64,000 nt of DNA, taken from IMG/VR virus record IMGVR_UViG_3300024336_000005, positions 62,001 to 126,000 of that record, one strand, 5' to 3'. Below, piece by piece: positions 25,041-36,614 of this stretch. Below the pieces are notes generated by a model, which ran no database searches, was not told the origin of the DNA, and worked only from the letters and a program-made list of their open reading frames with translations. The stretch comes from a virus. The position numbers and the translations under genes are program-made. Positions within the stretch are counted from its first letter, which is position 1; each line of letters begins with the position of its first letter.

Positions 25041-25170
25041 GTGCCAGCTAACCACTGGCTAGTGGGAGTGGCGAGAATCCCACGATGAGAAGCGGAGTCG
25101 TTTCCGTAAAAAAAGCCCCGGACCTCGGAGAGGTCGGCAATCTTCTGTCGTTAGTCCCTAAACCATGGAG
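25041..25170 (+). ncRNA. Structured RNA motif, copy A
   Basis: Homologous to 36472-36614. Stems: GCCAG/CTGGC, GTGGGA/TCCCAC, CGGA/TCCG, ACCTC/GAGGT with GGA loop. Shared unpaired strings include GGCTAGTGGG, GTGGCGA and ACCATGGAG. The stems covary with copy B (see that entry), which argues for a conserved RNA fold. Class unknown. Confidence 0.65.
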
Positions 25171-26215
25171 TAGTGTGATGAGAGGCTTGCCTCAGTGATT
25201 CACAGTTATCGATGAAGTGGAGGGGATAGAGAAGCTGTGGTGTGCAGCCATAGTGGCTTGGGGTTTTAACCGCGAAGCCAAATTTCTGCCCCACCAATAG
25301 GGTAAAAATGGGATGCTTGGTGATCATCTAAAACATCCTTGAGCTATGCAGTATGCTCAAGCGCCCGCCTGGGTAATCCAGTGGGTTTAGAGAGGACATG
25401 GTGCTCCTCCTGGATACATAGCCATAAAGCCTTATTGGTTGGAGGCGGCTGTGTAATACCGACCACAATACTAGATAGTAATTTAATGTTGGAGCAACTT
25501 TCTAGTTACAGTTGCTCCCGTCTACTAGCGACGAATATAAACCGATTATGCTAGTTAAATCGGAGAATTAGGCCCTTCGGCGGTAGGAGTTCCCGCGTGG
25601 TCACTGTGCTTTTATACCCACAGACTACATATATGGATTGGGCCATTTTACCAGATGATCTGTCCCGGCAGATGCATAGGCAGCCACCTCGTTAAAAACT
25701 GGTACCGGGCACTATCTTGCAGTGGAAGCTCTTAGACCTCCGATATAAAGGGGGATTAGGTAAATCTTAGGTGCCTAAGTTAGCGAACCTGGAAGCGCCC
25801 CACGGGCAGGACTTAGCCATCCCTCATGGTGAAAGCACAAGCTGAGGGGCTTGTGTTGGTTCAATGTCTCTACACCGTTCCTGCCGGTTATGCAGGAGAG
25901 TGTTGTGAGTTCCGTGTGAGAACTCTCATGTGTGGCTGGCATTAATTGATAAGCGGGTAGAGTCGCTTATCAACAGCTCTCGACGCGGGCGAGTAAACAG
26001 AGGGGTTGCTCCTTCTGCCCGCACTCTTCTGTTCCGTCTGTAGGGTAAAAGCAGCGGGCCCGATTGGTGGGCTACGATATAATACGGACCAATTGAGGTT
26101 GGGAATCTTAAACAACAAGCTCTCGAAATTACAGAATCAGAGAGCATTCCTCTTGGCCTGGCAAGTTAAGAAGCTTAGCGGCTTCAACCAGGACCTTTTC
26201 TACAAGGAAAAAGAA

Positions 26216-26503
26216 ATGAAGTCTTTCTTGAATACTGTTCGGCACTACATCAAGATTATTCCCCTCCATCTGGCAATCTATTGGCCTCTTGGGCTGATTG
26301 CATTGGTTGCTTCGCTCTTTCTCCCTTGGTTGGGCTTGGCTCTGTGCCTTTCCTATCTTGTTACCCTTTTTGATACAATTAGCTTCCCCGCTGCACCCAG
26401 CGGGAATGGAGCAGGAGCCTGGGGCGATCTTGCGCTAATCGCTTGTTCTATCGTGGGTGCATTCTTGTTTGGAATTAGCTCTGTCATCGGTTTCTTGATC
26501 TAA
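26216..26503 (+). CDS. Membrane protein (95 aa)
   Basis: ATG 26216 with AAGGA upstream; the open frame 5' of it belongs to structured non-coding DNA. Three hydrophobic segments. Unknown. Confidence 0.7.
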   Translation: MKSFLNTVRHYIKIIPLHLAIYWPLGLIALVASLFLPWLGLALCLSYLVTLFDTISFPAAPSGNGAGAWGDLALIACSIVGAFLFGISSVIGFLI

Positions 26504-26516
26504 CGAAGGAAGTCTA

Positions 26517-26723
26517 ATGAAGTTTGTAACTGAAATCCACCCACGAGGCATGGCTTGTCGAATGGGACCTCCCGAGTTTAAGGAGGTCCTTGAGCTTGGG
26601 CTCTCAGCTCTTCCCACCAATGGGACTGTGATTACCTTCGAGGGGCAGCGATACACTGTCATCAGGTATGAGCTGAACGTGGACCTGGGCACGGACCAAA
26701 TCGTGGTGGAAAAAGATGACTGA
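26517..26723 (+). CDS. Unknown small protein (68 aa)
   Basis: RBS GAAGGAAG before ATG. Beta-rich soluble domain. Overlaps the next gene by 8 nt. Confidence 0.65.
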   Translation: MKFVTEIHPRGMACRMGPPEFKEVLELGLSALPTNGTVITFEGQRYTVIRYELNVDLGTDQIVVEKDD

Positions 26724-27024
26724 AAGCAAAGAGAACGAATTTACGTGGGCGGGGCTGATTACAGTCCTGCTCTGCCTCCCCCTGATTTGGACTTTTCATG
26801 TATGGACGGGCCAGCACTTTTTGGTGCATGGCCTACCTTACTTGAATCTTGACCCTATTCATCTGCCTTTTTGGCAGATGTTCTGGGGCGGTATCGCCTT
26901 CAATCTTGCCTTTTCTCGTTCCAATATATTTACAAAGAGTGAAGATCACTCCTTGACTTATATGGGGCTGGTAGGCCTGGCAACTTCCATCCTCTCTTAT
27001 CTTGTTGTGTACGCCATCCTATAG
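26716..27024 (+). CDS. Membrane protein (102 aa)
   Basis: Two or three TM segments (about 10-28, 45-66, 78-100). Unknown. Confidence 0.65.
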   Translation: MTESKENEFTWAGLITVLLCLPLIWTFHVWTGQHFLVHGLPYLNLDPIHLPFWQMFWGGIAFNLAFSRSNIFTKSEDHSLTYMGLVGLATSILSYLVVYAIL

Positions 27025-27033
27025 GGAGAAAAA

Positions 27034-34711: not shown

Positions 34712-34782
34712 TGTCCTCGATTACAGAGGGTATTCTTGCTAGGCTGATGGAGAAGCCTGGCAAATTTGAAGGAGAATTCTGA
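34711..34782 (+). CDS. 23-aa micro-ORF
   Basis: ATG overlaps the stop of the synthetase gene; GGAGAG lies upstream. The peptide ends just before the RNA ligase start. Probably a coupling ORF. Confidence 0.35.
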   Translation: MSSITEGILARLMEKPGKFEGEF

Positions 34783-34784
34783 AT

Positions 34785-36146
34785 ATGTACCAAGCAATTG
34801 TTGCCAACATTCACACCCGTCCACATCCGGGAGCTGATCGAATTCAGCTAGGAACTGTATGTGGCCATCAGGTTGTATGCGGGCTTGACATTGCTGATGG
34901 TACTCTCGGTGTGTTCTTTCCTTGCGATGGCCAGCTAAGTCATGACTTCTGTGTGGCCAATGATGAGTACCCTCGGCTTGATGAACAGGGGAAGAAGGTC
35001 GGTGGCGGATTCATCAATCCTAAGAACCGTCGCGTAAAGGCACAAAGCTTTCGTGGTGAAAAGTCGGATGGCTACTGGGTTCCAATGGATAAGCTCATTA
35101 AGTGGGCAAATCATGTTTGGCGCGAGGATGACAAGGGAGACCATGTCCTCTTGTCCAACCGTGTGCAGAGCCTTGTAGAAGGTGACACCTTTGATTCCGT
35201 TGGCGATGTGCCTTTGTGTAACAAGTATGTAACTGAGAAGACCCTTAAGGCTCTTCAGAATCAGGCCAAGCAGGCTCGCAAGACTCATACTCAGTTCGCT
35301 CAGCATATTGATACCAAGCAGTTCCGATACAACATTGGAAACATCCCGGAGGGTTCCATTGTATGGATATCTGAAAAGCTTCACGGTACTAGCGGTCGCT
35401 ATGGGTACGTTCAAGCTCTTCGTGAGCTCGGTGGCCGTTTTAATGCTTTTGTTCGCAGGGCTTTTGATTGGTGCGCTGATAAGCTTGGTCTTGATGTAAG
35501 CCCTAAGTATGAACATGTTATGGGCTCACGAAGGGTTGAGCTCTCTGCTCAGTCAGAAGGGTTTTACGGCTCGATAGATTTCCGTGCAAATGTAGCAAAC
35601 AAGTTGAAGGGAAATCTCCTCAAGGGTGAGTGCATTTATGGAGAGCTAGTGGGTTGGACTGGTCCTGATTCTTTGATCATGGGCCGCCACTCAACCAAGA
35701 AGCTCGGCAAGGAGCTTCGCAAGCAGTACGGAGAAGAGGTCACCTATACTTATGGACAGCCAAACGGTTGTTCTGAGTTCTTCGTTTATCGAATCACTCG
35801 TGTTGGCCCAGATGGTCAGACGATTGAGCTCGGTGAGCGTGAGATGCGGGCAAGGGCGAGGGTCCTCGGCTTCAAGACTCCAGAGCTCTTTGCGGGGCCG
35901 ATGGTAGTTCACGACTATGCTGATGATAAGTGGGTCGATGGTGGCAAGACGCTCATGCAGGTCGTGGAAGCCTACCTAAATGGACCATCGATTGAAGACT
36001 CACGACATCCTCGAGAGGGCGTCGTGATTAGGGTTGACAGGCCTGACGGGACTACCATCTGGCTCAAGGACAAGAACCATCCGTTCAAGGTAATGGAGGG
36101 TATCGCTAAGGATTCCGGCGAAGCAGACATGGAAGAAAGCTCATGA
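34785..36146 (+). CDS. Rnl5-like RNA ligase (453 aa)
   Basis: The N-terminal OB-like domain (1-150: GADRIQLGTV, VFFPCDGQLS) is followed by the nucleotidyltransferase core: motif I EKLHGTS with adenylated Lys198, motif IV EGVVIR near residue 405 and motif V WLKDKNHPFK near 425. The OB-then-ligase order matches the Deinococcus DraRnl/Rnl5 group, which seals RNA 3'-OH/5'-PO4 ends in nicked duplexes. With the PNK-like and 2H-like proteins it could form an RNA repair or tRNA-splicing pathway. Confidence 0.85.
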   Translation: MYQAIVANIHTRPHPGADRIQLGTVCGHQVVCGLDIADGTLGVFFPCDGQLSHDFCVANDEYPRLDEQGKKVGGGFINPKNRRVKAQSFRGEKSDGYWVPMDKLIKWANHVWREDDKGDHVLLSNRVQSLVEGDTFDSVGDVPLCNKYVTEKTLKALQNQAKQARKTHTQFAQHIDTKQFRYNIGNIPEGSIVWISEKLHGTSGRYGYVQALRELGGRFNAFVRRAFDWCADKLGLDVSPKYEHVMGSRRVELSAQSEGFYGSIDFRANVANKLKGNLLKGECIYGELVGWTGPDSLIMGRHSTKKLGKELRKQYGEEVTYTYGQPNGCSEFFVYRITRVGPDGQTIELGEREMRARARVLGFKTPELFAGPMVVHDYADDKWVDGGKTLMQVVEAYLNGPSIEDSRHPREGVVIRVDRPDGTTIWLKDKNHPFKVMEGIAKDSGEADMEESS

Positions 36147-36466
36147 AAGCATTCTTATTTGTAATGATAGTGCTTTTGTTTGGCTGTGGTTCCACCTCGA
36201 CGCTAAGTCCGTTTGATAGTTCTATCAACAATCTGTTTAAGACTGTTGAAGATTCTAAGACGACGCTCAAACTTGAGACCATTCAGTGCCAACATAAGGA
36301 GACCCAAAGGAATACAACTTGTATTGTAAGGGCCTTCCTTTCGGACGGCACTCCCTTTCAACTGTCCTTAGAGTGTCCAACTGTACCCGGTGAGCTATGT
36401 GCGGTTACTGCACAGGCTCCAACTACTTCAGTTCAATCCAACCCAAGGGGCGGCTTGAGCCTATAG
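36143..36466 (+). CDS. Lipoprotein (107 aa)
   Basis: ATGA overlap with the ligase gene. Signal peptide with lipobox LLFGC (Cys15), small Cys-containing domain, Pro/Thr-rich tail. Envelope-anchored; function unknown. Confidence 0.75.
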   Translation: MKAFLFVMIVLLFGCGSTSTLSPFDSSINNLFKTVEDSKTTLKLETIQCQHKETQRNTTCIVRAFLSDGTPFQLSLECPTVPGELCAVTAQAPTTSVQSNPRGGLSL

Positions 36467-36471
36467 GATGC

Positions 36472-36614
36472 GTGCCGATTAACTACCGGCTAGTGGGGGT
36501 GGCGACAAGCCCCATGATTGAAGCAGGCTAGTTCCTGTCCATTAGCTTACGCTATAGACGCCCCGAACCTCGGAGAGGTCGGATTTGCTGTTATCGTTAG
36601 ACGTTACCATGGAG
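36472..36614 (+). ncRNA. Structured RNA motif, copy B
   Basis: Homologue of 25041-25170. Copy B stems (GCCG/CGGC, GGGG/CCCC, CAGG/CCTG, ACCTC/GAGGT) differ in sequence from copy A but keep pairing. Lies between a lipoprotein gene and tRNA-Ser. The remaining gap to 36650 holds nothing else obvious. Confidence 0.65.

Follow-up and report, generated by a model that had tools for sequence, protein, structure and literature searches.

The EAR/epsC element is an operon-internal RNA of ~120 nt that carries several stems and a pseudoknot and promotes read-through; it is chromosomal and resides in exopolysaccharide operons of Bacillales. Phage HK022 encodes putL and putR, RNAs of ~70 nt with two stem-loops, which are present in two copies per genome within early transcripts and act without a phage protein (PMC9378689). 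GOLLD and ROOL are structured phage RNAs located near tRNA islands (PMC12286853), and the bacterial Y RNA YrlA, which is bound by Ro60, has a tRNA-like domain (PMC7790460). Here we describe an RNA found twice in a window of 64,000 nucleotides taken from a 204 kb virus record in IMG/VR (bases 62001-126000), and compare its fold and surroundings with these systems.

Results

Two copies of the RNA in one phage

An earlier note on this DNA had reported a motif in two copies, and the positions and + strand orientation of both were confirmed; both copies are intergenic (Table 1). With copy 1 as blastn query against the 204 kb record, copy 2 was the sole match (67% identity, E 4e-6). Three stems had been described as differing in sequence while keeping their pairing. 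The changes are exact in the first (GCCAG/CTGGC in copy 1 vs GCCG/CGGC in copy 2), the second (GTGGGA/TCCCAC vs GTGGGG/CCCCAT) and the third (GCGGA/TCCGT vs GCAGG/CCTGT); the fourth shared stem, ACCTC/GAGGT, is invariant between the copies. That description lacked two elements: a fifth hairpin (CGGCA/TGTCG) and a kissing contact between the hairpin 1 and hairpin 3 loops. Coding conservation was ruled out, every copy having stops in all frames. Single-sequence folding of both copies was indistinct from shuffles (z -1.7 and -0.1) and thus thermodynamic stability is no useful argument here.

Table 1. Positions of the RNA copies, their elements and neighboring genes in the window
Feature	Position	Strand	Sequence or evidence
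Copy 1, whole conserved stretch	25041-25170	+	Covariance model R1, 130 bits (in R1 seed)
Copy 1, hairpin 1	25043-25059	+	GCCAG 25043-25047 / CTGGC 25055-25059, loop 25048-25054
Copy 1, hairpin 2	25062-25083	+	GTGGGA 25062-25067 / TCCCAC 25078-25083, loop GTGGCGAGAA
Copy 1, hairpin 3	25092-25107	+	GCGGA 25092-25096 / TCCGT 25103-25107, loop GTCGTT
Copy 1, A-rich linker	25108-25121	+	AAAAAAAG, then CCCC; unpaired, mostly conserved
Copy 1, hairpin 4	25122-25134	+	ACCTC-GGA-GAGGT
Copy 1, hairpin 5	25135-25150	+	CGGCA / TGTCG, abuts hairpin 4
Upstream ORF, 107 aa	36143-36466	+	Stop codon 5 nt before copy 2; no Pfam match
Copy 2	36472-36614	+	Model R1 match, 79.4 bits, E 5.7e-20 (outside R1 seed)
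Copy 2, hairpin 1	36474-36490	+	GCCG 36474-36477 / CGGC 36487-36490
Copy 2, hairpin 2	36493-36515	+	GTGGGG 36493-36498 / CCCCAT 36510-36515, loop GTGGCGACAAG
Copy 2, hairpin 3	36523-36538	+	GCAGG 36523-36527 / CCTGT 36534-36538, loop CTAGTT
Copy 2, hairpin 4	36567-36579	+	ACCTC-GGA-GAGGT
Copy 2, hairpin 5	36580-36596	+	CGGAT..TATCG, weak, probably bulged
tRNA-Ser(TGA)	36651-36739	+	ARAGORN; 36 nt after copy 2
Ro60 homologue, TROVE + vWA_Ro60	40773-42416	+	Pfam 2.1e-39 and 9.3e-47

Homologues in other phage contigs

Homologues were sought by scanning IMG/VR with exact DNA patterns taken from both copies, and the true spread may be wider than such patterns reveal; most homologues were fished out via hairpin 4. 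Most pattern matches were chance matches in coding DNA, and inspection of the surroundings together with covariance model R1 (seed: copy 1, L030, L022, L015 and L020) split the real matches cleanly from these. The scans yielded eight more phage contigs with seven further distinct sequences. The carriers, some of which may be fragments, are L069 (206 kb), L078 (170 kb), L030 and L031 (106 and 126 kb, one RNA sequence), L022 (57 kb), L015 (34 kb) and L020 and L002 (12 kb each). Copy 1 is homologous to the RNA of L022 and others, and outside its seed R1 matched L078 (7.6e-25), L069 (6e-21) and L002 (1.3e-14). Pairwise identity among the nine sequences is 47-87%. The terminases of the window phage and of G001 have different cultured relatives, all of them distant, indicating that the carriers do not form one lineage.

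No homologue was detected in cultured phages by blastn with four copies as queries, nor by the model in 15 phage records including QBert and HK022; a match in phage Benvolio at 0.013 in the model search was taken as chance. One pattern scan of bacterial genome contigs returned 99 stretches, none of them a convincing full-length match, and partial hairpin 4/5 matches in bacteria were likewise attributed to chance. A model search of 796 genomes of two phyla gave no match, which is weak evidence given that eight candidates were scored per genome. Neither window copy, nor the copies in six other contigs, matched any Rfam 15 family at E up to 10. Judged by these searches, the copies represent a family of phage RNAs that is absent from Rfam and that may have been described elsewhere.

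Compensatory changes support five hairpins and a loop-loop contact

Comparison of the nine sequences shows a fold of ~110-125 nt with five hairpins and an A-rich linker, in which hairpins 4 and 5 are placed end to end and the hairpin 1 and hairpin 3 loops kiss across hairpin 2. In alignment A4 (nine sequences, five helices, 26 pairs), double-sided changes occur at 19 of the 26 pairs, a count reached in 0 of 500 shuffles. Standard pairs amount to 91.4% compared with 75.9% in shuffled alignments (0/500), and slid versions did not exceed 48%, figures that in absolute terms lean toward these helices, since A4 was built by a model holding them. Covariation was 0.550 vs 0.239 in shuffles (0/500). 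The slid versions and the matches held out of the seed answer the concern of alignment bias in part. The search bait comprised hairpin 4 together with the outer CGG/YCG of hairpin 5, and their constancy is no evidence; the inner pairs of hairpin 5 covary (CG, TA, AT, GC). All five pairs of hairpin 1 and five of the six of hairpin 2 show double-sided changes, with 96% of the cells of hairpin 2 paired. The 3' strand of hairpin 3 of copy 2 was misplaced in the model alignment due to an extra small hairpin around 36541-36553; read directly, this stem is GCAGG/CCTGT.

A permutation analysis of 21 loop/flank combinations chose the pair of hairpin 1 loop and hairpin 3 loop (p 0.007, uncorrected). The kissing helix, whose register was picked after viewing the sequences but whose alignment came from a model with no kissing pairs in it, is paired in 97.1% of 35 cells (0/500 shuffles; slides at most 54%), and its covariation is 0.708 vs 0.373 in shuffles. 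Column by column, the exchanges are A-U/G-C, U-A/C-G and C-G/U-A/U-G. In copy 1 the hairpin 3 loop GTCGTT forms four pairs with the hairpin 1 loop and one C.C mismatch; in copy 2, CTAGTT and the hairpin 1 loop AACTA form five. Two other pseudoknots were attractive by eye but were rejected after permutation of 21 region pairs: one between the 3' flank and the loop of hairpin 1 (p 0.03), the other between far downstream sequence and the loop of hairpin 5 (p 0.14). Pairing of flank with flank (p 0.016 before correction for 21 tests) had no common register.

The two window copies alone would be little proof, and it is the seven further natural sequences that settle the case for a structured RNA with compensatory changes, as the earlier note had proposed: homologues, whose failure to support the pairs had been named as counter-evidence, were found and keep them. 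On this comparative evidence, the shared fold and the RNA family are almost certainly real.

Placement among co-directional genes

At nine of nine loci the RNA is co-directional with real-looking flanking genes, as read from the genes, the gene calls at these loci being crude ORF picks. At least five of the nine copies begin 5-7 nt behind the stop codon of the preceding ORF (copy 2, L015, L069 and L002 by automatic ORFs; L022 behind a 20-codon ORF read in the sequence), leaving little room for an own promoter. Neither window copy has a + strand sigma-70-like promoter close before it or an intrinsic terminator close behind it. None of the nine records gave a match to PF00623, the beta' domain of RNA polymerase, which was detected in 14 of 14 controls, suggesting that the carrier phages depend on the host polymerase. 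All of these features agree with a cis-acting element. The RNA probably either works on the transcript that contains it or is excised from that transcript.

What follows the RNA differs between phages, which also agrees with a cis element, and no downstream gene is common to them. Protein genes follow in L002, L015, L020, L022 and L069, with the next gene start ~85-130 nt downstream; tRNAs follow at copy 2, L030/L031 and L078; and 0.8 kb of untranslated DNA follows copy 1. A related small gene, common in phages, lies near the RNA in L015, L020 and L022. An elaborate fold that in five contigs precedes a start codon by 85-130 nt could be a riboswitch, as had been suggested, or another gene-specific leader. 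The variety of downstream genes, the tRNAs or long untranslated DNA after four of the nine copies and the lack of an Rfam riboswitch match speak against this, and we consider such a leader very unlikely.

The position between cistrons and before tRNAs, together with the compact fold, conserved unpaired nucleotides and loop-loop contact, might also suit a self-cleaving ribozyme or processing site that cuts polycistronic phage transcripts. No Rfam ribozyme was matched, and most small self-cleaving ribozymes are shorter than the ~110-125 nt of this RNA; this explanation is unlikely.

In G000, G001 and G002/G003 the RNA is located within or next to tRNA clusters. This setting, which GOLLD and ROOL share (PMC12286853), raises the possibility of a trans-acting non-coding RNA that is processed from tRNA-rich or intergenic transcripts and serves in an RNA-protein particle or as a decoy during infection, a role that has been proposed for further phage RNAs from tRNA islands. 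The conserved block is self-contained and no other part of the 1.5 kb surrounding copy 1 recurs in the other phages, in line with a processed RNA. In the four smaller contigs, however, no tRNA gene was found within the stretch scanned and the RNA lies between protein genes, and the window copies bear no sign of a promoter or terminator of their own. We regard a trans-acting RNA as possible, and as only marginally less likely than a cis element.

The untranslated region that includes copy 1 comprises ~1.5 kb without convincing ORFs (24490-26005, +) behind a phage tmRNA gene (23869-24490, +) with a large insert (340 nt vs 104 in the Rfam model). It holds a long near-perfect hairpin at 24814-24947 (fold z -8 for 24790-24989). 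A large common RNA spanning this region was considered and rejected; only the motif is shared with other phages. Upstream of copy 2, an adenylosuccinate synthetase-like gene adjoins an RNA ligase gene (33653-36146, +). Two observations concern tRNAs. L078 carries a tRNA with a CUA anticodon (8661-8734; tRNA-Pyl by ARAGORN) 1.6 kb behind the RNA, possibly an amber suppressor. In the window, a tRNA match extends over 130 nt at 59165-59294 (+; Rfam, 42 bits), where ARAGORN made no tRNA call; the gene may be split or intron-bearing.

Ro60 in the window and in the other carriers

The RNA had also been suggested to be a Ro60 ligand, and the window does encode a complete Ro60, 4.2 kb downstream of copy 2. 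Ro60 is present in this one of the nine records with the RNA, among contigs that may be fragments, and was not found in the eight others, including those of 206, 170 and 126 kb: a scan of seven other RNA-carrying records for TROVE was negative, as was a search of three, one of them the 206 kb record, for the Ro60 protein itself. A Ro60 query for related loci in IMG/VR found nothing, and the RNA was not found in mycobacteriophage QBert, which belongs to a Ro60-encoding group. Neither copy was reported as carrying a tRNA-like domain by ARAGORN or the Rfam tRNA model, and a consistent end-closing stem, the element that in Y RNAs contains the Ro60 site, was not seen. Since Ro60 was not found in the other eight contigs and the tested Ro60-bearing phages lack the RNA, the RNA is not an obligate Ro60 ligand; Ro60 is an occasional partner at most, and a Y RNA is the most improbable of the explanations weighed here.

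A short untranslated stretch that separates two ORFs, 0.5 kb behind Ro60 (42911-42975, +), contains the sequence ACTATAACGGCCCTAAGGTAGCGA. Over 25-27 nt it nearly copies (92.6-96%) a conserved segment of 23S rRNA, the I-CeuI site region; Rfam gave no rRNA match there.

Discussion

The placement of the RNA, apparently inside operons, in the direction of its neighbors and with varying genes behind it, leads us to favor, tentatively, a cis-acting element serving antitermination or protection in the manner of put and EAR, a reading that is possible rather than probable. The presence of two copies in one genome, as with putL and putR, adds to it. In such a scheme the RNA would stay part of a long transcript and act in cis, its compact fold would engage the host transcription or decay machinery, and untranslated or tRNA-rich stretches would thereby be spared termination or degradation, as with putL/putR and EAR, whose folds are different. 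Several points weigh against a cis element. Terminators that require read-through were not demonstrated, sequence and secondary structure are unlike those of put, and the HK022 genome had no model match. In addition, tRNAs, which act in trans, and GOLLD/ROOL are placed likewise in phage operons, and the location of copy 1 within a 1.5 kb untranslated region also suits a processed RNA. Overall, the placement appears to favor a cis element by a small margin over a processed RNA similar to GOLLD/ROOL, and a ribozyme, a riboswitch and a Ro60 ligand are less likely.

The recurrence of the RNA in phage lineages that otherwise have little obvious in common suggests a shared host target. It is conceivable, if somewhat unlikely, that the kissing-loop fold modifies the RNA polymerase of the host, or some other conserved host machine, with no phage protein needed; if so, unrelated phages would share a class of RNA that has so far gone undescribed. 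The RNA is structured and well supported, its secondary structure and one tertiary contact are defined, and it joins the few phage RNA families without an assigned function; its size permits quick functional testing.

With bacterial Y RNAs such as YrlA the RNA shares its small, structured nature and a Ro60 encoded by the window phage; it differs from them in having no tRNA-like domain and in that Ro60 was not found in the other carriers. GOLLD and ROOL are similar as structured phage RNAs in a tRNA-island setting, but are several times larger, and the RNA has no Rfam match to either. The EAR/epsC RNA (RF01735), with its operon-internal position, size of ~120 nt, several stems and pseudoknot, is comparable, yet it is chromosomal, and the epsC Rfam model is silent on the phage RNA. 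The put RNAs of Escherichia phage HK022 are likewise phage-encoded, structured and present in two copies per genome, and against their two stem-loops and ~70 nt the RNA described here has five hairpins in ~110-125 nt.
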